The position numbers were made by a program, and so were the translations under genes. A stretch of 22,648 nucleotides of DNA from a virus. The DNA lies in the IMG/VR virus record IMGVR_UViG_3300045941_000429, positions 1 to 22,648 of that record; one strand, given 5' to 3'. The notes beneath the pieces are model-generated. The model had not been told where the DNA came from, made no database searches, and saw nothing but the letters and a program-made list of their open reading frames with translations. Position 1 is the first letter of the stretch, and the number at the start of each line of letters is the position of its first letter. Of this stretch, positions 2,303-22,403 are shown one piece after another.

Positions 2303-4732
2303 TCATTCTTTGCACTCCCCCCATGATAGCTTGCTTCTCTTCAAGCTGAATGGAATAATGAGGGGATCATCGGGGTAGGGAAGAACAATCTGCGAGGCAG
2401 CCGTAATCTTGGGCAGAACTTCGTCAACCTGCTCGATACGAGCCTGCATCAATAGGCTGTCATGCACCTGCAACATCAACTGAACTTCCTGCCGTAGCTG
2501 GCGCCACACGTTCAGGAGGATCTTGTTGGTGAGGATGGCAATGGTGGATTGGGGAACCCAGGCGAGCCCGTGGGTATAGAAGCCCCTCTCGAGGACTGGG
2601 TAGCGAAAGCCGAAGATGTTCTCGAGGATGCCGATCTGGGTCCGGTTCCCCTCGGCACAAACTTGAGCGATCTTCCAGTGCCAACTTCCCTTTCGGGTGA
2701 CTGGTCCGATGGCGGGAGACATCTCGAAAATCTTACGAAGTAAGAGGTCAGCCTCATGGACTGTACGGCCGATCCGGTTAGCGAGGCCCTCGGCTGTTAC
2801 TCCATAGTGACCGGCATGTCGCGCGCGCTTTGAGAGAGGGCGGGAAAGTTTTAGTTCCCTTCCTGTTTCCTCATGAATGTCAATGCCTTCTCGGAAGAGA
2901 GCCTTCAGCCAGGGATCGTTGGCTTCCCAGGCGACGACCCTAGCGTCAGCTCCCTCGAGGTCTCCTTCGATGAACTCGCAATCTTCGTCAGGGATGAACA
3001 TGTCACGGAGGTTCGGAAGGCCTCGGGCCATCGGCTTGGCCTCCTTGTCCTCGCCCTCTGAGATGTTCATCAGCTGGAAGCCGAAGCCGAATGCATCCTC
3101 CTTAGCCGAGAACCGGAAAGTCTTTGTACCGTCAATGCGATAGGAGCAACGGGCTCTTCCGTCCTCCGCAATGTCCTTCACCAAGACGTTAGCTGTGATG
3201 GTTTTGGCCGAGCGATAGATCTGGATGCGTTCAATGAGGGATCTGACCAGCGGCTCCCTCTCCTTGATCTTCTCCAGCGCCTCGTCATTCACGGTAAGTC
3301 GAGTTCGCCGAGAACCGTCTGCTTCCTTCACCTTCGTGGTGACGGGACGAATGCCGAGGTCATTGTAGAAGAATGTCTGAAGCTGTTGTGGAGAGTTCGG
3401 ATTAAGGGGATGGCTACAGATGAAATCAATCTCCTCCTTCAACGTGGCAGTGTGGACTCGGAACTCTTTCAGCAGTCGATCCTTCCGCTCGAGGTCAATC
3501 CGAACTCCCCTCAGCATCATGAAGAGGACGGGCTCGAAGAGGTCCTGAAGGAATTGGTTCTGCTCCGTCAGTCCGACCTGCTTCGTAATGTCTTCGAGGG
3601 TCTTCCCAATCTCATCTGTCCGCGAGACGTCCTCAGCATTGTAGTTCCACAGCTGAGTCTCTGACATGGAGGAGTCCCATTCCTTCCCCTCCACTTTCCA
3701 GAACCGAGGCTGCTGGCAGTAGAGAGTTCCCTGGAACTCGAGTCGGTTCCTCATATTGGGATTGGGCCAGAGGCAGTGATGATTGATAATGGTGTCGTGG
3801 CGGACACGAGGAACGAAGCCCCAAATCTTCGCTGTATACTGGCAATCGTAGAGAAGGTTCTGTCCGCGGATGCGGGCATTAGGATGGGTAGAGATCTCGC
3901 GTAGGCGCAGGACGATTGAAAGCTCGACCTCCGGCGGCCAATACGAATGATCGCCTTCTATGACCATGAAGGGGATGGTGAGGACGCGCTCTTGAGTTCC
4001 AATTCCACAGCAAGCAATCTGGCCGCCACGGGTTTCGAGGTCCAAGGTGACGAACTCGCCCCGTTCCGACCGCAGAAACATCTCGTCGAGGAACGACATC
4101 GTCTGCTCGTATGTGGGCTGGAGATAGAACTTGGCCGGTCTGTGGATCAGCTCAGAGGAGAGGGACTCATGCAGGGCACGGGACAGATCGTGCTTCACGA
4201 TTGAGCGATCTTGCCATGCATACTGCATGATGTAGGAGGAATGGAAGGTGGGAATAACTTTGTAGTGTCGATCTCGGATCTTCGGATAGAAGATGTTACC
4301 GCGGAGGTCCGAGAGCATATGGTTCTTCTTGGGCGGCTCGCCGGTGAGAGCCCAGTAAGCAGTCCTACCCATCGCCACGATGCAGTTCGGTTGCACCCGC
4401 TCGACCTCATCATGCAGATCATGCAGGTGTTGTATCATGTTCGGCTTAACATAGCCGTTCATGAAGGTAGGCCAACCCTCTCGCTGCCCATGAGTCTTGA
4501 TGAAGGTGACGAATTGGGAGATGTTATTATTGTAGGGTTGGTAGCGGAAGGCGTTGGAGATCCTGATGTCTGCCCGATTAATTCCACACTCGCCGAACAT
4601 CAAGTCCAAGTGATATCCTGCTGGCCCGACAAAGGGCTTTCCTCGATCGTTCTCTTCTGCACCTGGGGCTTCCCCAATGAGCATCAAGTTGGCGGGAACC
4701 GGACCGTCACCAGGAACATATCGGGTACTCAT
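2303..4732 (-). CDS. uracil-DNA glycosylase - family A DNA polymerase fusion
   Basis: This 809-residue protein has three domains in order. Residues about 1-190 are a family 4/5-like uracil-DNA glycosylase: GEAPGAEEN..GKPFVGPAG at 20-39 and HSSY at 164-167. The N-terminal CxxC expected for the Fe-S cluster of family 4 enzymes is not seen. Residues about 225-390 are a 3'-5' exonuclease with DLE at 231-233, N292/D296, and Y364-D368. The rest is a family A polymerase with motif A at D591 (DLEGADARVV), motif B at 635-650 and motif C VHDS at 756-759. Motif B is unusual: Lys and His stand where R754 and K758 of E. coli Pol I would align, Tyr replaces F762, and the helix is shortened. The start has AAGG six bases upstream and overlaps the preceding stop as ATGA. 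It is the replicative polymerase; the fused UDG may remove or sense uracil. Confidence 0.93.
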   Translation of the reverse strand: MSTRYVPGDGPVPANLMLIGEAPGAEENDRGKPFVGPAGYHLDLMFGECGINRADIRISNAFRYQPYNNNISQFVTFIKTHGQREGWPTFMNGYVKPNMIQHLHDLHDEVERVQPNCIVAMGRTAYWALTGEPPKKNHMLSDLRGNIFYPKIRDRHYKVIPTFHSSYIMQYAWQDRSIVKHDLSRALHESLSSELIHRPAKFYLQPTYEQTMSFLDEMFLRSERGEFVTLDLETRGGQIACCGIGTQERVLTIPFMVIEGDHSYWPPEVELSIVLRLREISTHPNARIRGQNLLYDCQYTAKIWGFVPRVRHDTIINHHCLWPNPNMRNRLEFQGTLYCQQPRFWKVEGKEWDSSMSETQLWNYNAEDVSRTDEIGKTLEDITKQVGLTEQNQFLQDLFEPVLFMMLRGVRIDLERKDRLLKEFRVHTATLKEEIDFICSHPLNPNSPQQLQTFFYNDLGIRPVTTKVKEADGSRRTRLTVNDEALEKIKEREPLVRSLIERIQIYRSAKTITANVLVKDIAEDGRARCSYRIDGTKTFRFSAKEDAFGFGFQLMNISEGEDKEAKPMARGLPNLRDMFIPDEDCEFIEGDLEGADARVVAWEANDPWLKALFREGIDIHEETGRELKLSRPLSKRARHAGHYGVTAEGLANRIGRTVHEADLLLRKIFEMSPAIGPVTRKGSWHWKIAQVCAEGNRTQIGILENIFGFRYPVLERGFYTHGLAWVPQSTIAILTNKILLNVWRQLRQEVQLMLQVHDSLLMQARIEQVDEVLPKITAASQIVLPYPDDPLIIPFSLKRSKLSWGECKE

Positions 4733-4953
4733 TTCTTCGCCTTCTCTTGTGCGCTCTCCTCCGGCGTGATGTCCTGAATACTCTCCTCGACTTGTTTCTG
4801 CTCCTCGAGCCGAGCATTTAGTACCCTGATCTCAAGATCCCTTTGTGCTGCGAGCGCCTTGGCCAGGGCAGCCTGTCTGAGGGCCAAGGCTAGATCCTGG
4901 GAGAGGATGTCGAACGCTGCCTGCATGAGTTCGAACTGGTCAGGCCTTGTCAT
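4729..4953 (-). CDS. small coiled-coil protein
   Basis: This 74-residue predicted protein consists almost entirely of charged and alanine-rich helix. A leucine/alanine heptad-like stretch spans about residues 12-55, and the tail is acidic then basic. GGAG lies seven bases before the ATG. The start overlaps the end of the methyltransferase gene by 14 bases, and the stop overlaps the polymerase start as ATGA, so it is translationally coupled on both sides. No family was recognised. A small helical adaptor for the polymerase or methyltransferase is possible, but this rests on position alone. Confidence 0.6.
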   Translation of the reverse strand: MTRPDQFELMQAAFDILSQDLALALRQAALAKALAAQRDLEIRVLNARLEEQKQVEESIQDITPEESAQEKAKK

Positions 4954-6229
4954 CTACTAGCTCCATCTCCATTTCAACGAGTCGCTTCTTAGCGTACTGG
5001 ATTGCCAGCTCGGAATTGTCCACCCCGATGGCAGTGAGATCGAACATCTTAGCCGAGGGGAAGATCGGACCCGAGCCGCAAAAAGGGTCGCACACCACGG
5101 AGATACCGGGAGTGGCTGATCGCTCGAGAAGGTCTGTGAAGAGCGAGACTGGCTTGGCTGCAGCGTAGGTCACTTTGGTCTCAATCGGGTGGACGAGCAC
5201 GTCGGATAGACCAGTTCGCACTAAACGCATCTCGCCCTTGATGGCGTAGAGGATACATTCGTACCGGCGAGATGGCCCGTGGTCGATTTCGGCAGAATGT
5301 CCTCCGTTCTTCACCCAGATGAGAGGAACATTCCACACCCTCCATCCGAGGCTGTCGAAGACAGGGACGTGGTCCATGAACCTGCGAATGTCACAGAACA
5401 TATAGAGGTGGGCTTCAGGAGCCGTTGCGTAGGTTGCTGCTTCAGCAAACCTCCGGATAAGCCCCTTCACTTGTGTCCAGTTATCATTGTATTCATGCCG
5501 ATGTCTGGTATCGCCGTCGATCTTGTGGGCCGAGATGCCGTAGGGCGGATCGGTGAGGATGATGTCGAAGCGACCAGTCTGTGTGAGCAAGTACTCAATC
5601 GCATCCTGTTGATGTAGCTCGTGCTTGATGTTGGGAACCAGCTGAGAGGTGATGGCTTGAGCAAACTCTCTGCCGAGCTGGTCGGCAATCATACGCTTAG
5701 CTTGCCGAAGGGAGGGAGCTTTAGCAATGTTCTCGTTCTGCTTGATGATCTGGTCGATTTCCAAAGCTTCCCTGATGGTAGCAGTTCTAGTGTTATCAAT
5801 CCCGATCTCTTCCGCAATAGCGGTGAGGGTCTTGCCCTGGCTGAGGCGGAGCCGAGCGAGCCTGGCCCTGGCTGCCACCTGATCTTGCCAAGGTAAATCA
5901 GCCCTTCTGATGTTCTCATCCAGCTCCGCCTCGAGGACGAGGTCCTCGGACATCTCGGCCAGGTCTGTGATAGGGAGGAAGCCCAGGGGAACCTCGAGCC
6001 CGTTACAGAGGATCCTCTTTCCTGGCTGCTCCATGTAGATCTTCGTGATGGCCTTGAGCCGAGTCTCACCGGCGACCAGATGAGGAAGGTCGTCCTTCCA
6101 CCTGATCACAATGGGATGGAGGAGACCGAGGAGAAGGATGGACTCGGCGAGGTCGGAGACATTCTCCTCCATGTGTACCTTGCGGATGCGTTCGCCGACC
6201 TGGATCCTGTCAACGTGAATGAACTGCAT
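4940..6229 (-). CDS. ParB-like domain fused to DNA methyltransferase (probably N6-adenine)
   Basis: This 429-residue fusion starts with a ParB/Srx-like N-terminal domain (about 1-110: HVDRIQVGERIR, then LHPIVIRW and LVAGETRLKA). A helix-turn-helix-like stretch follows near 133-158 (TLTAIAEEIGID). The C-terminal half is an amino-methyltransferase with catalytic DPPYG at 227-231 ahead of the SAM-binding DPFCGSGP at 380-387, the order typical of beta-class enzymes. DPPY is usual for adenine N6 methylation. Such fusions are known in phages and conjugative elements. No restriction endonuclease lies beside it, so it is probably an orphan methylase for self-protection or for regulating phage sites. 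Whether the ParB part uses CTP cannot be judged. The gene lies five bases from its upstream neighbour. Confidence 0.9.
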   Translation of the reverse strand: MQFIHVDRIQVGERIRKVHMEENVSDLAESILLLGLLHPIVIRWKDDLPHLVAGETRLKAITKIYMEQPGKRILCNGLEVPLGFLPITDLAEMSEDLVLEAELDENIRRADLPWQDQVAARARLARLRLSQGKTLTAIAEEIGIDNTRTATIREALEIDQIIKQNENIAKAPSLRQAKRMIADQLGREFAQAITSQLVPNIKHELHQQDAIEYLLTQTGRFDIILTDPPYGISAHKIDGDTRHRHEYNDNWTQVKGLIRRFAEAATYATAPEAHLYMFCDIRRFMDHVPVFDSLGWRVWNVPLIWVKNGGHSAEIDHGPSRRYECILYAIKGEMRLVRTGLSDVLVHPIETKVTYAAAKPVSLFTDLLERSATPGISVVCDPFCGSGPIFPSAKMFDLTAIGVDNSELAIQYAKKRLVEMEMELVDDKA

Positions 6230-9636: not shown

Positions 9637-9849
9637 CTATTCCGGAATGAGGTCGGCAAGATTGATCGCACGAGAAGAGCTGTACTTGCGCTTCTCCGAG
9701 CCCTTCTGCGTGAGAGCGCTCGCTGCAGACCGGGCCAGACGAGCTGCGTCCAGGCCAGCGCGAAGCTCTTCGAGTGAGATCTCTTCCCCAGCGAGGATGC
9801 GCGCACGCAGCGACATCACCTCCTCGAACGGACTGAGTTGCTCAGGCAA
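9637..9849 (-). CDS. small phage protein with C-terminal LADLIPE tail
   Basis: This 70-residue protein starts at TTG, supported by AAGGAG seven bases upstream. Residues about 5-45 (LSPFEEVMSLRARILAGEEI, then a second charged helix) form a helical hairpin, followed by a Ser/Arg-rich linker and the C-terminus NLADLIPE. The same tail ends the proteins at 17207-17650 and 18579-19088. The gene overlaps the ribbon-helix-helix gene and precedes the RecB-like nuclease. The function is unknown; the tail suggests binding to a common partner. Confidence 0.72.
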   Translation of the reverse strand: MPEQLSPFEEVMSLRARILAGEEISLEELRAGLDAARLARSAASALTQKGSEKRKYSSSRAINLADLIPE

Positions 9850-10201
9850 GTGCTTTCTCCTTTTGACGAGCTCGGTTCATGTTCCTGAGGATGATCTCAA
9901 ACTCCTGACGGAGCATGCGGAGATCATCGGGGGACAGCTGCACATTGAGCTCGGGTATGTGCAGCTTGCCCGGGTAGACAAGTAGACGAGTGATGCCACG
10001 AGAGAGGACAGCGATGCGGGTCTCGATTACATCGCCGTCCTCTGGCTGGCAGAGCTGCTCTACGTACTTTTGCAGAGCTCTTGTAATGATCTCGGCCCGA
10101 GCGCCGTACTCAGGTCGGCCCACGAGCGGGTCGAAGGTGAGAAGTTCGACCTTTGCAGCGAGGTCAGATGGGACCGTGATGGTCCAGCGCTCGGTAGGCA
10201 C
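9842..10201 (-). CDS. ribbon-helix-helix-like DNA-binding protein
   Basis: This 119-residue protein starts at GTG (10201), chosen because AAGGAG lies seven bases upstream. An ATG at 10258 would add 19 basic residues but has no such site and would overlap the previous gene. The N-terminus (ERWTITVPSDLAAKVELL, then ARAEIITRALQKYVEQL) has the strand-helix-helix pattern of CopG/Arc-type proteins. The C-terminal half carries a helical stretch (LSPDDLRMLRQEFEIILRN). It is probably a transcriptional or replication regulator made with the recombination genes. Confidence 0.66.
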   Translation of the reverse strand: MPTERWTITVPSDLAAKVELLTFDPLVGRPEYGARAEIITRALQKYVEQLCQPEDGDVIETRIAVLSRGITRLLVYPGKLHIPELNVQLSPDDLRMLRQEFEIILRNMNRARQKEKALA

Positions 10202-10214
10202 CTTGGTTCTCCTT

Positions 10215-10394
10215 CTACCTTGGCCAGAGCGTGACCGGAGTAGCAACTCCGGCAACATTCAGGACGAGCAGGATGATGAAGATGAGCACACAGACAGCGG
10301 CGCCAAGGAGACACAGACGCTTCATCTGCTCATCGGCGATGAACCAGTGAACAGCTACGAAGATCACGAACCCGGCTAGCAGGAGACCGATCAT
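10215..10394 (-). CDS. two-helix small membrane protein
   Basis: This 59-residue protein has two hydrophobic segments (about residues 2-18 and 28-48) separated by a short charged loop ADEQMKR. GGAGG is placed seven bases before the ATG, one of the best ribosome sites in the window. It starts two bases after the stop of the secreted-protein gene. Size and topology would fit a holin-like or inner-membrane accessory protein, but no lysozyme gene is seen nearby and the gene lies in the replication arm. Function is left open. Confidence 0.66.
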   Translation of the reverse strand: MIGLLLAGFVIFVAVHWFIADEQMKRLCLLGAAVCVLIFIILLVLNVAGVATPVTLWPR

Positions 10395-11576: not shown

Positions 11577-13106
11577 TCAGGTGTACTTGATGGTTCGGAT
11601 GATGTTGATATGAGGTGGCTCCACGTCCAGCTCGTACCCGTGCGTCGTGCTGACCCGCCAGAGGCCCCAGATCGACATGACATCCTTGAACGCGGCGAGG
11701 TTATCCTCATCCTTCATGATTGAGAAGGCGGCCTGAGGAATTTTGCACGGACGATTAGGATCATCGCGCATGCGTTCCAACAGGTCGAGCCCGATAACTT
11801 GGCGCAGCCCCGAGTTCGTGGCCTCACCATCCATGAGGCGCCGCAGGCTATCATCCAGCGCCTCGGCACTGAGTTCGGGATGCGATGGTCCCCAGCCGTG
11901 CTCTTCGATCAGCCATTTCCGCATCCCCTCACGGATCAACCGCTCATTGAACCCGTGTTTGCGGAACAGCTCATAAAGGCGCCACAGGCGGAGAAGAGAA
12001 TGCGGCGAGCCGATCTGGATCAGCCCGTCCCTTTTCGTGAACTCAGCGCCCCAACGAGCGACGTTATCTGCGCTTGCGCCTGGGATCAGCCGGGCAAGCT
12101 GGTAGGTCGCCTCGCTCGCGGTGTAGAGCCCGTCGAAGTTCCACTTGCCCGAGCCGTTGCCGAGCCCGGCAGAGGTAGTCTGCGATGGGCGTGCGCCGAG
12201 CGTTAGCCCGGACTTCGAGGCGTGGCGTACTCGCTTGGATCTCCCGAAGGCGGGGTAGCTGTTGGCGCCGCACCACTTGCACACCGCCTTGAGCGCGGGC
12301 TCGCGGCTGCTGGCGATGCCGAAGGCCGAGGCCCGTAGCGTGGGCCAGAACGCCGTCTGACCGGCCGTGACCTCGACACCGTCGCTGGTCGCGGTGCCGC
12401 CGTTTGCAGTTGGGTTGCCGTTTGCGTCGACGAAGTCATCCGCAGTCAACCGGATGCCTTCGCTGTCACTGCTACGCATCTCGCCAAGGAACGCCGCAAT
12501 GTAGGCCTTCAGGCTCTTCTGGAACTTGCGCTTGTTGCGGCTGGTCTTGGCCCATAGGTAGCCAGCGAGACTGTCGTTCGCGCCGCCGAACAGTCGGTAG
12601 TTGTTGCCGAGGATGTTGCCCCACGGGCCAGTAGCGTCGAACAGGACTTGATACTTCTTGAAGATCCCGATCGCTGTGGCGGACGTGATCCCGTGACGAG
12701 CGGCGAATTGGCTGACGGTAATCGGGAACATCGACTGGCCGCCGCTGCCCGAGAGGTAGCCGATCCTGGTGTCCGCATAGATCGGCAACTCGCCCTGGCC
12801 CTGGTAGTCGGACCACTCAGTAAAGGCGAGACCGATCGCTGCTCCGGCCAGCCCGAGTGCGATCATGCCAAAACCGGTCGCGCCGATCGCCGCTGTGATG
12901 ACTGCAGTGACTACACTGATCACGTCACTGACGGTGAGCGCCTGGGCCTCGCCTGGGAGATAAGCGTAGACCACCGCACCAACAGCAAGCGTGGACGCGC
13001 TGTGCAGGAAGGCACGGCGGTCCATTACTGGCGCTGCCGGAGCGAATATCTCAGGCTTGCGTTGGGTATGCCGCCACTGCTGACGGCTTAGCCATTGCCG
13101 GAGCAT
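11577..13106 (-). CDS. Tat-signal protein of unknown function, likely a moron
   Basis: The ATG at 13106 (509 residues) was chosen because it lies about 75 bases after a strong promoter and follows GGAAGAG. An ATG at 13199 lies inside the promoter, and one at 13025 has no ribosome site. A twin-arginine signal is clear: DRRAFLHSAS, a hydrophobic stretch, then AQA. Next comes a Gly/Ala-rich hydrophobic helix (about 40 residues), then a long mixed domain with one CKWC pair. No family was recognised. It would be exported folded, perhaps staying membrane anchored. Codon use looks richer in GCC/CGC than the neighbours, and it has its own promoter and operator-like palindrome. All this suggests an acquired accessory gene expressed independently of the phage programme. 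Confidence 0.72.
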   Translation of the reverse strand: MLRQWLSRQQWRHTQRKPEIFAPAAPVMDRRAFLHSASTLAVGAVVYAYLPGEAQALTVSDVISVVTAVITAAIGATGFGMIALGLAGAAIGLAFTEWSDYQGQGELPIYADTRIGYLSGSGGQSMFPITVSQFAARHGITSATAIGIFKKYQVLFDATGPWGNILGNNYRLFGGANDSLAGYLWAKTSRNKRKFQKSLKAYIAAFLGEMRSSDSEGIRLTADDFVDANGNPTANGGTATSDGVEVTAGQTAFWPTLRASAFGIASSREPALKAVCKWCGANSYPAFGRSKRVRHASKSGLTLGARPSQTTSAGLGNGSGKWNFDGLYTASEATYQLARLIPGASADNVARWGAEFTKRDGLIQIGSPHSLLRLWRLYELFRKHGFNERLIREGMRKWLIEEHGWGPSHPELSAEALDDSLRRLMDGEATNSGLRQVIGLDLLERMRDDPNRPCKIPQAAFSIMKDEDNLAAFKDVMSIWGLWRVSTTHGYELDVEPPHINIIRTIKYT

Positions 13107-13187
13107 CTTTATCTCTTCCGGGAGCCTATGGGTACAGCCCGCGTGCCGCTTGGCTCCGAGCGACGCGCGGTCCGATTGGGGACGATA

Positions 13188-13216
13188 AACATAACGCATT
13201 TCCGCACGGATGTCAA
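13188..13216 (-). promoter_or_regulatory. sigma70-like promoter for the Tat-signal gene
   Basis: On the - strand TTGACA (13216-13211) is followed by a 17-base spacer and TATGTT (13193-13188). The -35 is perfect and the -10 matches four of six consensus positions. Predicted transcription would begin near 13181, upstream of the ATG at 13106. Confidence 0.62.
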
Positions 13217-17206: not shown

Positions 17207-17650
17207 CTATTCCGGTATGAGGTCGGCTAGGTCCTTGTGCAAGGCTCGGCCTGTGACGCGGCTAACTCCTCTCATCCCGGGCCGCAGTTTGGTGATCTTC
17301 CCGTCGTCGAACTGTGGGCTCGGCCTAGCGCCTACCAACCGCTCGACTCTTTGGGGCGCTTTCCCGGTCTGAAGGACGTGCCAGAGCTGCTGCGGCGAGC
17401 AGACGAGGACCCGTTCGCCCGATTGCAGGATCACCGTCATGGAGTTTCTGCCTGGTATGACCTGCATCGGTTCGAGCGCTGGTTGCGAGGCTGAGGGCTC
17501 CATCTCGGCAAGGCATTCCTTCATGACTCGGAGCACATTCTGTTCGATCTCGTTGGAGGCTAGAGGCCCTGCCCGAGCGATGCGCTGCTTTAGGCCTGCT
17601 GCGTCAGCGAATGCCCACCCGCGAGCTGCGTCTTGAAAAGGAGTTATCAT
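17207..17650 (-). CDS. phage protein with C-terminal DLADLIPE tail
   Basis: This 147-residue protein starts at the ATG at 17650, chosen because GGAGGG lies seven bases upstream. It has a helical N-terminal half (FQDAARGWAFADAAGLKQRIARA), a short beta segment (MTVILQSGERVLVCSPQQL), then a basic linker and the end KDLADLIPE. The tail matches those at 9637-9849 and 18579-19088 in protein but differs at codon third positions. No enzyme motif is seen. It is one of the first genes of the leftward arm, so it is probably early expressed. Confidence 0.68.
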   Translation of the reverse strand: MITPFQDAARGWAFADAAGLKQRIARAGPLASNEIEQNVLRVMKECLAEMEPSASQPALEPMQVIPGRNSMTVILQSGERVLVCSPQQLWHVLQTGKAPQRVERLVGARPSPQFDDGKITKLRPGMRGVSRVTGRALHKDLADLIPE

Positions 17651-17772
17651 GAAGTCACCCTCCCGCCTCGGCACAGGCGTCGGTGCCGACATGTTGATGG
17701 AGTCGGCCAGAAGCCATGACCCATTTCACTGGCCAGGAAACCGCGATCCTTTGAGTGATCCCTTTCGTGCAT
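17647..17772 (-). CDS. possible 41-residue leader protein
   Basis: The frame MHERDHSKDRGFLASEMGHG continues to a Cys/Arg-rich end and stops in TGA that overlaps the next ATG (17650). GGAG lies seven bases before the ATG; an ATG two codons upstream is also available. The overlap and ribosome site match the style of the rest of the arm, but the composition is not clearly that of a folded protein. Confidence 0.4.
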   Translation of the reverse strand: MHERDHSKDRGFLASEMGHGFWPTPSTCRHRRLCRGGRVTS

Positions 17773-17811: not shown

Positions 17812-17898
17812 CGTGTGGCGTTGGGAAAGCATGAAGCATCTCCGTTTGCTTATTGCCGAAGGCAAAGCGATGTTATCACGTGTTGCCGCATGGGAATA

Positions 17899-17915
17899 TG
17901 CGACATTTTGTCGCA
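17899..17915. promoter_or_regulatory. operator-like palindrome TGCGACA-TTT-TGTCGCA, copy 1
   Basis: Perfect 7-bp arms are separated by three bases. A second copy with the same arms and spacing is at 19091-19107. On the - strand weak -35-like TTGGGC and -10-like CATATT elements flank it, so it could be an operator for the leftward arm. The promoter itself is not convincing. Confidence 0.55.
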
Positions 17916-17928
17916 CCATGCCCAATTT

Positions 17929-17995
17929 CCCCTACATGTTCCCTATGTTTCCCTAATGTCCCCTAATATCACCCTAAAGTCCCCTGTGTCCCTAT
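17929..17995 (+). repeat. helically phased CCCTA array
   Basis: CCCTA begins at 17930, 17941, 17951, 17961, 17972 and 17990, with a degenerate CCCTG at 17982. Steps are 11, 10, 10, 11, 10 and 8 bases, close to one DNA turn. Spacer sequences differ, so only the core and the period are conserved. Such phasing puts all cores on one face of the helix, as in iteron or bent-DNA loci. Confidence 0.68.
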
Positions 17996-18020
17996 GTCGA
18001 TCGATTTTGGGTCCCCATCT

Positions 18021-18095
18021 CGGACCTTATCTCACCCTATCTTACAATACCTATATGTATAATTTTTTTTTTAAGGTAAGGGGGGGTAAGGTCCG
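18021..18095. repeat. 9-bp inverted repeat flanking a T10 tract
   Basis: CGGACCTTA (18021-18029) and TAAGGTCCG (18087-18095) are perfect inverses centred near 18058. Between them lie an AT-rich stretch (ACAATACCTATATGTATAA), T10 (18063-18072) and the first G run. An AT-rich stretch between inverted arms is a typical DNA-unwinding layout. Confidence 0.6.
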
Positions 18096-18109
18096 GGGGG
18101 TGAGGGGGG
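18063..18109 (+). other. T10 tract followed by G7, G6 and G6 runs
   Basis: T10 at 18063-18072, G7 at 18080-18086, G6 at 18095-18100 and G6 at 18104-18109 are separated by short linkers. The + strand could form a G-quadruplex. Homopolymer length should be read cautiously, as sequencing can miscount it. Confidence 0.6.
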
Positions 18110-18126
18110 CGTAAAATGGAAAATCA

Positions 18127-18171
18127 TAGGAACAGAGGGGATATTAGGGTAACCATAGGGGATATTAGGGT
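18127..18171 (-). repeat. phased TAGGG array, opposite orientation
   Basis: TAGGG starts at 18145, 18156 and 18166, with degenerate TAGGA at 18127 and GAGGGG at 18135. Steps are about 9-11 bases. A 21-base unit GGGGATATTAGGGTAAC.. occurs twice in tandem. It is the inverse of the CCCTA array and lies at a similar distance from the centre near 18055. Confidence 0.62.
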
Positions 18172-18186
18172 AACACGATATGCGGC

Positions 18187-18201
18187 AATGCGTGGTTCGA
18201 C
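18187..18201 (+). promoter_or_regulatory. intergenic motif copy 3, AATGCGTGGTTCGAC
   Basis: This third copy of AATRCGTGGTTCGAC lies at the outer edge of the symmetric locus. It matches the 14115-14129 copy (- strand) over all 15 bases and the 2265-2279 copy with one change. Confidence 0.45.
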
Positions 18202-18240
18202 ATAGCTGCAACATCACGTATTCTACATTTCGGTAGGTTT

Positions 18241-18299
18241 ATTGTTGTTTTAGAGGTGGGGAAGTAGCTTTGTTGTTGTTTTGGGGATGGGGAGGGAGG
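18241..18299 (+). repeat. imperfect TTGTTGTTTT/G-run repeat with quadruplex potential
   Basis: Two units of TTGTTGTTTT followed by G-rich sequence are separated by about 30 bases. G runs occur at 18258-18261, 18283-18286, 18289-18292, 18294-18296 and 18298-18299, spaced closely enough for a G-quadruplex on the + strand. Confidence 0.5.
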
Positions 18300-18501: not shown

Positions 18502-18530
18502 TTGACATGACATCTCGCTTATCGTATGGT
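18502..18530 (+). promoter_or_regulatory. sigma70-like promoter for the rightward arm
   Basis: TTGACA (18502-18507), a 17-base spacer, and TATGGT (18525-18530). The design closely matches the 13188-13216 promoter. Predicted start near 18537, about 40 bases before the ATG at 18579. Confidence 0.65.
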
Positions 18531-18540
18531 CCCGATGGTG

Positions 18541-18559
18541 ATCGGACATTGGGTCCGAT
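18541..18559 (+). promoter_or_regulatory. leader hairpin ATCGGAC/GTCCGAT
   Basis: Perfect 7-bp arms around a five-base loop sit at the predicted 5' end of the transcript, just after the promoter. The position fits a repressor site or an mRNA-protecting 5' hairpin. Confidence 0.5.
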
Positions 18560-18578: not shown

Positions 18579-19088
18579 ATGGCAACCCGTACCCGTCGCC
18601 TCTCGAAGGTGATCGACGCCAACGCCAGGTCTCTTACCCTGGTGTTCCTCGGCGAGAAGGACAGCGAAGGCAATCCGACCGTCAACGATACCCTGGTGTT
18701 CAGCCTCTCCGACTACCCCAAGGCCATTGTGACCCATCTTGCGCTTCACGGGCTTGGGCAGGTGCTCGGTGACGAAATCTCTGGCATCGGCGCCGATGGT
18801 GGCGATCCCGTTGAGATGGTCAAGGCCCGCAACGCGCCGCTCGTGAACGGCGACTGGTCGGCCGGCCGCGAGATCGATCGCTCCATCCTGGTCGAGGCCA
18901 CCATGGCAGTATTCGCCAAGGCCGGCGTGGTTCGCGAGCGGGCGAAGGTCGAGGCGTACATCAACGGGCTCGACGCCAAGGAGGTCGCGAAGTACCGCCG
19001 GCGCCCTGACATCACCGTGGCCGTCGCCGCAATCCGCGAGGCTCGCGGCCAGACCGGCGATGACTTGGGAGCCCTGATCCCGGAGTAA
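18579..19088 (+). CDS. conserved phage protein with LIPE tail, first gene of the packaging arm
   Basis: This 169-residue protein runs from MATRTRRLSKVIDANA, supported by GGA eight bases upstream and a promoter 50 bases before it. The segment TLVFSLSDYPKAIVTHLALHGLGQVLGDEISG resembles a family of phage proteins with an L-x-L-HGL-x-Q-x2-GD signature, often found near terminase genes. Helices follow (SILVEATMAVFAKAG, VAVAAIREAR), and the protein ends DDLGALIPE. The function in that family is unknown to me. Codon use is GC-rich compared with the genes after it. A terminator-like hairpin follows, so it is probably transcribed on its own and strongly. Confidence 0.75.
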   Translation: MATRTRRLSKVIDANARSLTLVFLGEKDSEGNPTVNDTLVFSLSDYPKAIVTHLALHGLGQVLGDEISGIGADGGDPVEMVKARNAPLVNGDWSAGREIDRSILVEATMAVFAKAGVVRERAKVEAYINGLDAKEVAKYRRRPDITVAVAAIREARGQTGDDLGALIPE

Positions 19089-20448: not shown

Positions 20449-20863
20449 AGAGCAGATTCTAGGGTGGCTCAAGCGAGGTCTCGGGGAAAGGGTGATAGAT
20501 GATGCAAGACTCAGATACGAAATGGCTGACGGAGAATCAGGTGCTCTGCATCCTGATGCAATCATCCTCTGTCAGCATTCACTTATCCTGGTTGAGATCA
20601 AACTCAATGTCAGTCTCAGGTCGTGGTGGCAGCTGCGGCATGTATACGGACCTCTGCTTCGCAAGGCAATGCCAGCTGCGCGAGTTCGAGACCTCATCAT
20701 TTCTGCCTACTACCCAGCAGCAGAGCTGCTCGATCAGCTACCGGAAGACCCCATCGCTGTGCGGAACCCGCTAGATGCAGGATTCACCGGGCTCAGCCTC
20801 ATCGTACTGGCAGAGGACAAACCCAGGACTGGCGGTCCTACAGGCCCTCTCGGCAGCACCTAA
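20408..20863 (+). CDS. PD-(D/E)XK nuclease-like protein
   Basis: This 151-residue protein runs from MPTAPKRIRGRLYEEQIL. Motifs read in order are an early Glu (YEEQ), HPDAIIL with the Asp, and LVEIKL as the ExK, followed by a WWQLRHVYG helix. This is the core of restriction-like nucleases such as VRR-Nuc or phage resolvases. The gene overlaps the small-terminase gene by 41 bases and lies before the large terminase, so it may trim or resolve DNA during packaging. The ribosome site is weak and the start uncertain; the frame remains open further upstream but there shadows the previous gene. Confidence 0.65.
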   Translation: MPTAPKRIRGRLYEEQILGWLKRGLGERVIDDARLRYEMADGESGALHPDAIILCQHSLILVEIKLNVSLRSWWQLRHVYGPLLRKAMPAARVRDLIISAYYPAAELLDQLPEDPIAVRNPLDAGFTGLSLIVLAEDKPRTGGPTGPLGST

Positions 20864-22403
20864 GCCAAGCGCCGAGGGCGCTCGGTTGAGCACAGGTCCT
20901 GACGCTCGGGAGGCTCGGACGAACCAGGTTGATGTTGAGGAGCTGGTCGAGCTGTGTGCCCTGAATCCGCAGCTATTCTGCACCACCTTCTTCCCCAAAA
21001 CCTTCAGACAGGACTTTCCGGTCTTCGACCAGGATGTTTGGAGGCTCCTCGAGTCGCACAAGTACCAATTCGTCGCCCTCAAAATGTTCAGAGGGTCAGC
21101 GAAGACAACCCGCTTACGCACCTTCACCCTCAAGAGGGCCGTGTACGGGATCTCGAGAACTTGTATTTTTGTCTCGGTTTCGCAGCGGCATAGTATTCAG
21201 TCGGTGAGGTGGATTAAGAAGCAGGTGGAGGAGAATGAACTGCTGCGCTCGGTCTATGGGGTAGAACCGGGGAGCAAGTGGACAGATGAGTGGATTGAGA
21301 TATACTCGAGGGCACTTCAGCAGTCTTGTGCTATAGTTGCCCTGGGAATTACTGGACAAACTCGAGGGTTGAATATAGATGATTACCGGCCTGACCTGAT
21401 TGTAGTAGATGATCCGTGCGATGAGGAGAACACTGCATCAGATGAGCAGAGAGAGAGGACGGAGGAAAGATTTTTCTCTGCGCTGGCCCAGAGCCTTGCG
21501 CCCAGGACAGAATGTCCCGAGGCTATGATGGTGCTGTCGCAAACGCCGTTCATTGATGGGGACCTCGTATCGCAGTGCGAGAAGGATCCGACCTGGGCAA
21601 ATAGGTCCTACGGTTGCTTTCTCCCCAACGGGGAAAGTAGCTGGCCCTCGAGGTTCCCCACAGAGACACTCCTGGCAGAGAAGCAAGCCCACGTTGCCAG
21701 AGGCCAGGTGATGCTCTGGATGCGGGAGAAAGAAGTTACCATCATTGCAGACGAGCTAATGGATTTCAAACCTTCGTGGGCGAGGTTTTGGGATAACCTA
21801 GATCCACAGGCTCAGCTCGTAACCTTCATCGGGATTGATCCGGTTCCGCCTCCATCGGGTAGGCAGATCGCCGAGATGTTCTCCAAGAAGGACTTCGAGG
21901 TACTGGCCGTGGTGGGCCTCTACCGCGGGATGTTCTTCGTGCTCGAGATCCAGAGGAACCGCGGGCACCAACCAGATTGGACGGAGAACACCTTCATTAA
22001 CCTGGTACAGAAGTGGAAGCCCACCTCCTGTAGAGTTGAGGCGAACAACTATCAGAGGACCCTACAGTATTTGCTCGAGCGGAAGATGCGGGAGACTAGG
22101 GTCTTCGTGCCGATTAACCCTGTAACGGAGATGAGGAAGAAGCGACACAGGATCGTGCAGACATTAGCGCAGGTAGCATCACAAGGCGCCTTCTACATGC
22201 ATGCGACGCAGGTGGAGCTGATTTCGCAATTCTCCCGATATCCTCTGGTCGATCATGATGATGATCTGGACGCGGTGGCGATGGCCGTGGAGGAAGGGCT
22301 GGAGTACTACAGGAAAGGGGTCGAGTGGGACGAGGATGGGAAGCTGCAGCTTTACCAACACGATCAGATGGACTGGTCCAGTGGCATTCAGACTGCACCG
22401 TAA
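20775..22403 (+). CDS. terL: terminase large subunit
   Basis: This 542-residue packaging motor has an ATPase domain with Walker A-like MFRGSAKT (104-111), Walker B LIVVDD (208-213) and a coupling motif LSQTP near 254-258. The nuclease domain has D355 (FIGIDP), E422 (VEANN) and DDDLDA (495-500). It drives DNA into the prohead and cuts the concatemer. The ATG at 20775 gives an 89-base overlap with the previous gene and a poorly conserved-looking first 50 residues. These are encoded through hairpin element F, so the ancestral start may lie further in, but no better ribosome-site/start pair is present. Confidence 0.92.
   Translation: MQDSPGSASSYWQRTNPGLAVLQALSAAPKPSAEGARLSTGPDAREARTNQVDVEELVELCALNPQLFCTTFFPKTFRQDFPVFDQDVWRLLESHKYQFVALKMFRGSAKTTRLRTFTLKRAVYGISRTCIFVSVSQRHSIQSVRWIKKQVEENELLRSVYGVEPGSKWTDEWIEIYSRALQQSCAIVALGITGQTRGLNIDDYRPDLIVVDDPCDEENTASDEQRERTEERFFSALAQSLAPRTECPEAMMVLSQTPFIDGDLVSQCEKDPTWANRSYGCFLPNGESSWPSRFPTETLLAEKQAHVARGQVMLWMREKEVTIIADELMDFKPSWARFWDNLDPQAQLVTFIGIDPVPPPSGRQIAEMFSKKDFEVLAVVGLYRGMFFVLEIQRNRGHQPDWTENTFINLVQKWKPTSCRVEANNYQRTLQYLLERKMRETRVFVPINPVTEMRKKRHRIVQTLAQVASQGAFYMHATQVELISQFSRYPLVDHDDDLDAVAMAVEEGLEYYRKGVEWDEDGKLQLYQHDQMDWSSGIQTAP
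20861..20895 (+). repeat. gene-end hairpin element, copy F
   Basis: The sequence is TAAGCCAAGCGCC, three loop bases, then GGCGCTCGGTTGAGC. AGCGCC pairs with GGCGCT, and the outer CTAAGCC pairs with GGTTGAG with one mismatch. It begins at the stop TAA of the nuclease gene and is also read within the large-terminase frame. Confidence 0.62.

Follow-up and report, generated by a model that had tools for sequence, protein, structure and literature searches.

The locus described here raises the question of which function is served, in a tailed phage, by a non-coding cis element in which short words recur in opposed tandem arrays about an AT-rich centre. The window, by which we mean the whole stretch of DNA that was analysed, is a linear virus contig of 22.6 kb (22,648 nucleotides), assigned to a tailed phage by its gene content. 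Its leftward block encodes a fusion of uracil-DNA glycosylase (UDG) and family A DNA polymerase, a ParB-methyltransferase fusion, a Sak4-like (RecA-like) ATPase, and a DUF3987 protein, and its rightward block encodes a TerS-like protein and the large terminase (TerL, 20775–22403). In the window, these leftward (replication) and rightward (packaging) blocks form divergent operons, and the element occupies the gap of about 890 bp between them. Three further contigs represent the same virus (TerL 100% identical), and over a compared region of 1001 bp the four near-identical contigs differ at two positions, neither of which lies within the arrays.

Several minus-strand genes of the window were also inspected. 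In the polymerase gene (2303–4732), the UDG domain is fused N-terminally, and the gene at 4940–6229 joins a ParB N-terminal domain to an N6/N4 DNA methyltransferase, a fusion kept in most relatives. A small HTH_23-type protein is encoded at 836–1048, downstream of the DUF3987 gene, and a 540-aa protein (11577–13199) carries, about 60 aa in, a twin-arginine-like segment, MDRRAFLHSASTLAVGAVVYAYLPGEAQA, which is odd for a phage early region.

The element and the features adjoining it are the following:

roughly 17877–18194: whole element, palindromic, with G-runs and a T10/AT-rich centre
17877–17891 and 18180–18194: outer 15-bp inverted repeat (CACGTGTTGCCGCAT / ATGCGGCAATGCGTG), which bounds the element
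17899–17915: 17-bp perfect dyad TGCGACATTTTGTCGCA, two 7-bp halves with a short spacer, adjoining the left array
17921–17994, minus strand: left array, eight C-runs, six of them exact CCCTA (TAGGG on the minus strand)
17946–18175: imperfect palindrome found by repeat search, arms 17946–18045 and 18076–18175 (100 nt), 70% complementary
18021–18095: inner inverted repeat CGGACCTTATC.../...GGTAAGGTCCG (18021–18047 / 18069–18095), 78% complementary
18036–18075: AT-rich centre with T10 at 18063–18072, a tract with homologues in relatives
18080–18108, plus strand: G-runs G7, G6, and G6, adjoining the centre
18127–18172, plus strand: right array, TAGGA, GAGGG, and three exact TAGGG
18502–18530, plus strand: sigma70-like promoter TTGACA-17-TATGGT of the rightward gene, some 330 bp beyond the right array
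18541–18559: perfect 7-bp dyad ATCGGAC-N5-GTCCGAT, directly downstream of that promoter

Both dyads, at 17899–17915 and at 18541–18559, are possible operators. A 31-bp direct repeat (18233–18293, plus strand), in two adjoining copies that match at 83% of positions, follows the right array and precedes the rightward promoter.

In the left array, exact CCCTA cores start at 17930, 17941, 17951, 17961, 17972, and 17990, with CCCTG at 17982, so that successive cores are spaced by 11, 10, 10, 11, 10, and 8 bp; a weaker core, CCCAA at 17921, lengthens the array. In the right array, exact TAGGG cores at 18145, 18156, and 18166 are preceded by the one-mismatch cores TAGGA (18127) and GAGGG (18135), with spacings of 8, 10, 11, and 10 bp, and a 21-bp unit, CATAGGGGATATTAGGGTAAC, is present twice with a 95% match. 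The periodic cores reported in a preliminary description of this DNA are thus real, six of its seven CCCTA positions and three of its five TAGGG positions being exact and all spacings falling at 8–11 bp. Its proposed comparison with shuffled sequence gave the same answer: the scored chains, six CCCT at 9–11 bp (seven if the final 8-bp step is admitted) and four AGGG, were reached in none of 2000 local dinucleotide shuffles per array region. Shuffling the whole window 200 times produced no CCCT chain as long as the observed one and gave p=0.005 for the AGGG chain. Local autocorrelation of 3-mers peaked at 10, 21, and 31 in the left array and at 21 in the right array. The arrays of the window are not a product of chance.

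Because the two arrays are opposed and lie within a large inverted repeat, we regard them as the arms of one palindromic element. The preliminary description had covered the coordinates of both arrays and had overlooked the larger palindrome and the A/T tract, two features conserved above all others in the element. The palindrome of the window reaches a local alignment score of 38, against a null maximum of 16.

The same architecture was found, with unrelated repeat words, in related phages with TerL identities of 35–53% and in four GenBank phages. Searches that depend on sequence did not recover these relatives: a DNA similarity search of GenBank phages with the region gave no match, exact or one-mismatch TAGGG pairs yielded exact pairs in the same virus only, because the words turn over, and a search for CCCT/AGGG chains found no relative beyond the same virus, whereas a word-independent palindrome scan did find them. 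In the next relative, L007 (TerL 53% identical), left- and right-facing arrays occupy the same place, and the element has an A12 centre, G-runs, and even the string TAGGGAACATAGGG. Elsewhere the words, whose spacings at single loci were read by eye from printed sequences, include GCAAT at 8–11 bp (L156), AATGTGTATCA at 11 bp (L167), GTGGGCATAT at about 10 bp (L185), GGCGGGAATG at 10 bp (L026), GGGTGAACCTTGT at 13 bp with the G-rich side reversed (L113), and, in a Vibrio phage, the non-G-rich AAAAATT. A telomere-like core, as first proposed, therefore does not describe the class.

Word-free scanning upstream of terL revealed one dominant inverted repeat with an A/T run of 8–26 nt, at a distance of 1.9–4.4 kb in most loci. 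When whole contigs were scanned, the element ranked first among the inverted repeats of the genome in 32 of 36, scoring 22–61 where the next-best inverted repeat scored at most 26. The median inverted-repeat score of A/T tracts was 35.5 at the element and 9 at 63 other tracts of at least 7 nt in the same contigs, and the longest A/T run of a contig fell at the element in 30 of 34. When the arms were shuffled, 30 of 32 loci beat every shuffle, in a test whose centres had been pre-chosen by their A/T runs, unlike those of the later word-free scans; the palindrome is weak in G006 and G011. The arms have a median length of about 86 bp, and the 60-bp core of the element averages 71% AT. In 32 of 34 contigs, the distance from the element to the downstream terL is 1.8–4.4 kb. 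Read along the terL strand, the long homopolymer consists of As in 28 of the 34 element-bearing contigs and of Ts in six, among them the window, so that the palindromic element favours one orientation. The contigs come from metagenomes and differ in completeness, and the phage families are related by descent, so that these counts are not independent trials. The architecture is conserved while the words are replaced, with one copy per genome in a conserved position. Contigs of L028, L148, L016, L026, L033, and L019 start or wrap at or inside the A-tract or palindrome; assemblies of this phage group thus often break at the element.

The arms of 37 loci showed an excess of self-matches at lags of 8–13, with a peak at 10 (6.55 per locus, 7.5 standard errors) and a weaker excess near lags 18–22, 31–32, and 39–41, whereas control DNA taken at random from the same loci had the 3-base codon period only. 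Contiguous sites of about 10 bp are therefore the rule. Of the period that the preliminary description expected in relatives, short-period tandem arrays have been kept, with their sequence replaced and a spacing that varies from 8 to 13 bp; likewise, its proposal that the cores face one side of the helix agrees with the strict phase in the window and does not extend to all members, some of which, such as L113, have 13-bp arrays. A protein lined up along the DNA, as it had also suggested, would explain the arrays most naturally; among the products of the virus is a predicted ribbon-helix-helix (RHH) protein, a type that lines up in this way in ParR/parC. Nor is a period of one turn as unusual as had been thought, since ParR binds 10-bp repeats, with one dimer per iteron (PMC5016525).

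Three gene products are of interest as possible partners of the element:

9842–10258, minus strand: predicted RHH protein, candidate binder of the arrays
17207–17692, minus strand: leading gene of the leftward operon, on the opposite side of the element, product ending in DLADLIPE
18579–19088, plus strand: conserved protein of about 160 aa and unknown function, near the element in most relatives

The RHH family was detected in 31 of 36 contigs, where its gene invariably lies 3–10 kb to the left and is read from the strand opposite terL; none of five records without the element has it. The assignment is suggested by a sequence pattern and by an AlphaFold (AF2) model with two confident helices (31–41 and 53–70) preceded by an extended stretch; it stays a prediction because Pfam gave a single-member RHH_3 match (E=0.007), alignment to CopG with hhalign was in the right register at E=0.024 and a probability of 2%, and Foldseek searches with two models gave no useful match. 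Of the 31 element-bearing contigs in which the protein of about 160 aa was detected, 30 place it within 3 kb of the element, counting contigs as circular; the exception is G020, where the best match is about 6 kb away across the contig ends and a paralogue (769–1281) adjoins the element. Paralogues are also found nearby in several relatives.

The GenBank phages Mel-JY34, ctMlz233, and VS-ABTNL-3 have the element, the RHH protein, and the protein of about 160 aa, all three of which are absent from Caulobacter phage Kuura, Pseudomonas phage 119X, and Polaromonas phage Tiera. These last phages have related capsid and/or terminase genes (TerS-family matches in 119X and Tiera, portal/capsid in Kuura). 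In Microcystis phage Mel-JY34 the element lies at about 44.2 kb, and in Vibrio phage VS-ABTNL-3 at about 40.74 kb. In a Desulfofustis phage, a palindrome with A17 ranks second in the genome, and neither protein was detected; in G017 and G041, the element is present and the RHH protein was not detected. The element thus co-occurs with the predicted RHH protein and the neighbour of about 160 aa, and not with the terminase alone. A Mantel test that compared array words with 12 proteins (RHH, TerS, the protein of about 160 aa, DNA polymerase, and others), with TerL as covariate, gave no protein that tracks the words: for RHH, r=-0.08 and p=0.89, with array similarity near its floor and hence little power, and nothing survived correction for twelve tests (PolA p=0.02, DUF3987 p=0.04).

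In the window, otherwise different proteins share a C-terminal tail, GALIPE at 18579–19088 (plus strand) and ADLIPE at 17207–17692 and 9637–9849 (both minus strand). Relatives have shared tails of their own: DDLLS/DDLLG in G011, DEALDLL/DEALDLI in G020, EFDPNA/EFNPNA in G030, and APITI/PAITI in G012. Same-tail partners number 9 in 32 genomes, where 1.4 are expected; some are paralogues and others are not. These tails suggest a common docking partner.

Taken together, these features make the element probably either a place where genome replication begins or one to which a phage DNA-binding protein attaches. We tentatively favour, at somewhat less than even chances, the reading that it is an iteron-type replication origin bound along both arms by a small phage protein. 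The reasons are that it is non-coding, occurs once per genome, combines a centre suited to AT opening with system-specific tandem words, and lies beside the replication operon. By eye, a terminator-like hairpin sets it apart from the neighbouring gene in L007 and several relatives. A small phage-encoded DNA-binding protein, for which the RHH protein is the first candidate and the adjacent protein of about 160 aa the second, would fill the sites of about 10 bp and wrap or filament both arms; the resulting strain would open the A/T centre, where the phage helicase and polymerase could start replication. Tandem iterons and an AT-rich unwinding region, by which iteron origins are recognised, both have counterparts in the element, and the phage-specific words behave like iterons. 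As in lambda ori with O and in RepA plasmids, tandem system-specific words stand beside an AT-rich region, in one copy adjoining replication genes; here, however, the spacing is about 10 bp instead of about 20 bp, and words flank the AT centre on either side. No protein of a known initiator family was recognised. GC skew has one sign around most genomes, without inversion at the element, and is higher to the right than to the left in 12 of 23. There is therefore no signature of a bidirectional origin, and the element, if an origin, does not give rise to a mutational signature in two directions. Because the skew is mostly one-signed and its cumulative minimum shifts with the point at which the circle is opened, it tells little of where replication starts.

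A somewhat unlikely alternative is that the element is not an origin and acts as an operator or centromere-like site, with the RHH protein covering both arms in the manner of ParR on parC and the AT centre looped out; this complex would control the early leftward operon, or organise or anchor the replicating genome. The family spacing peak of 10 bp fits the iterons of ParR, and in plasmid R1 parC is split, with its middle, the promoter, looped out (PMC5016525). Type II partition systems (R1, pB171, pSK41) are the closest mechanical model for the element, with arrays of tandem sites at about 10–11 bp, in R1 as two clusters around a central gap, and with an RHH protein predicted in the same genome as the element. 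The arms of the element differ in being opposed (palindromic) about a centre with an A/T homopolymer, in a phage; no motor gene was recognised, and the RHH gene lies 3–10 kb away. The distribution of the RHH family, including the three GenBank phages, favours this alternative, as does the RHH gene of G015, whose own sigma70-like promoter carries TTCCCC words spaced by about 10–11 bp between the -10 and the ATG, which suggests autoregulation by a similar array. Against it, no ParM/ParA-type motor was found among the window proteins scanned (Pfam/PHROGs, a subset of ORFs), the words do not covary with the RHH protein, and neither Pfam nor Foldseek confirmed the RHH fold. The window element sits between divergent operons, as a divergent promoter would, but in L007, G011, L028, and G010 the right-hand gene reads towards the element and stops before it, so that it is not a divergent promoter there.

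Other systems with short tandem sites resemble the element in part. The omega repressor of pSM19035 is an RHH protein with short tandem sites in direct and inverted orientation, but its heptads, 7 bp in length, lie in three parS sites that are not palindromic about an A-tract. MraZ boxes (TGGGN-N5) share a G-run core at a 10-bp period, whereas the words of several relatives are not G-run cores, and no phage MraZ was identified.

Quite unlikely, in our assessment, is a packaging site (pac/cos), at which a ring of small terminase would recognise the arrays and wrap the DNA with about one contact per turn. The position of the element near the terminase genes, fixed at 2–4 kb upstream of terL, the presence of TerS in 36 of 36 contigs, and the contigs ending at or near the A-tract all point this way. 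Nevertheless, the element does not co-occur with the cognate terminase: its absence from Kuura, 119X, and Tiera argues against a pure packaging signal, and it tracks the RHH gene and that of the protein of about 160 aa instead. The ends of longer contigs are scattered relative to the element, and breaks at the A-tract are typical of assemblers, which stop at homopolymers and palindromes.

That the palindrome acts as RNA, as a giant hairpin, bidirectional terminator, or attenuator, is very improbable. Imperfect arms around an A/T run would suit such a structure, but the gap at the centre is large, the arms are tandem arrays, and an Rfam search gave no match. Among 648 palindrome mismatches, 383 were transversions and the transitions were split 149/116 between the strands; without a clear wobble pattern, a role at the DNA level is favoured over an RNA hairpin. 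Chance, low complexity, or a telomere-like or G-quadruplex repeat, to which the TAGGG spelling and the G-runs adjoining the centre might point, is scarcely credible, being refuted by the shuffles, the whole-contig ranking, and the A/T-tract comparison; moreover, tens of phages keep the architecture with non-G-rich words such as GCAAT (L156) or AAAAATT. A telomere or protelomerase site was also rejected, as the arms are imperfect (70%), the position is internal in most contigs, and the words are not conserved.

A further reading, which we consider doubtful, is that selection acts on the architecture of this family-wide locus while its words turn over in every lineage, that a ParR-like RHH filament opens or anchors the phage origin, and that the phage-specific C-terminal tails of neighbouring proteins (LIPE here) recruit a common replication partner; if true, phages would possess a kind of replication/segregation nucleoprotein so far undescribed in them. 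Literature searches of partial coverage, for the element or for Mel-JY34, found no description of the element. The element provides a candidate origin or centromere, testable in isolates, for a large and mostly uncultivated group of phages of 40–49 kb that has relatives in Microcystis and Vibrio. Once sequence similarity has been lost, the architecture of palindrome, A/T run, and short tandem words still allows such a site to be recognised, and the fast turnover of words on a fixed design poses a testable problem of protein-DNA co-evolution.
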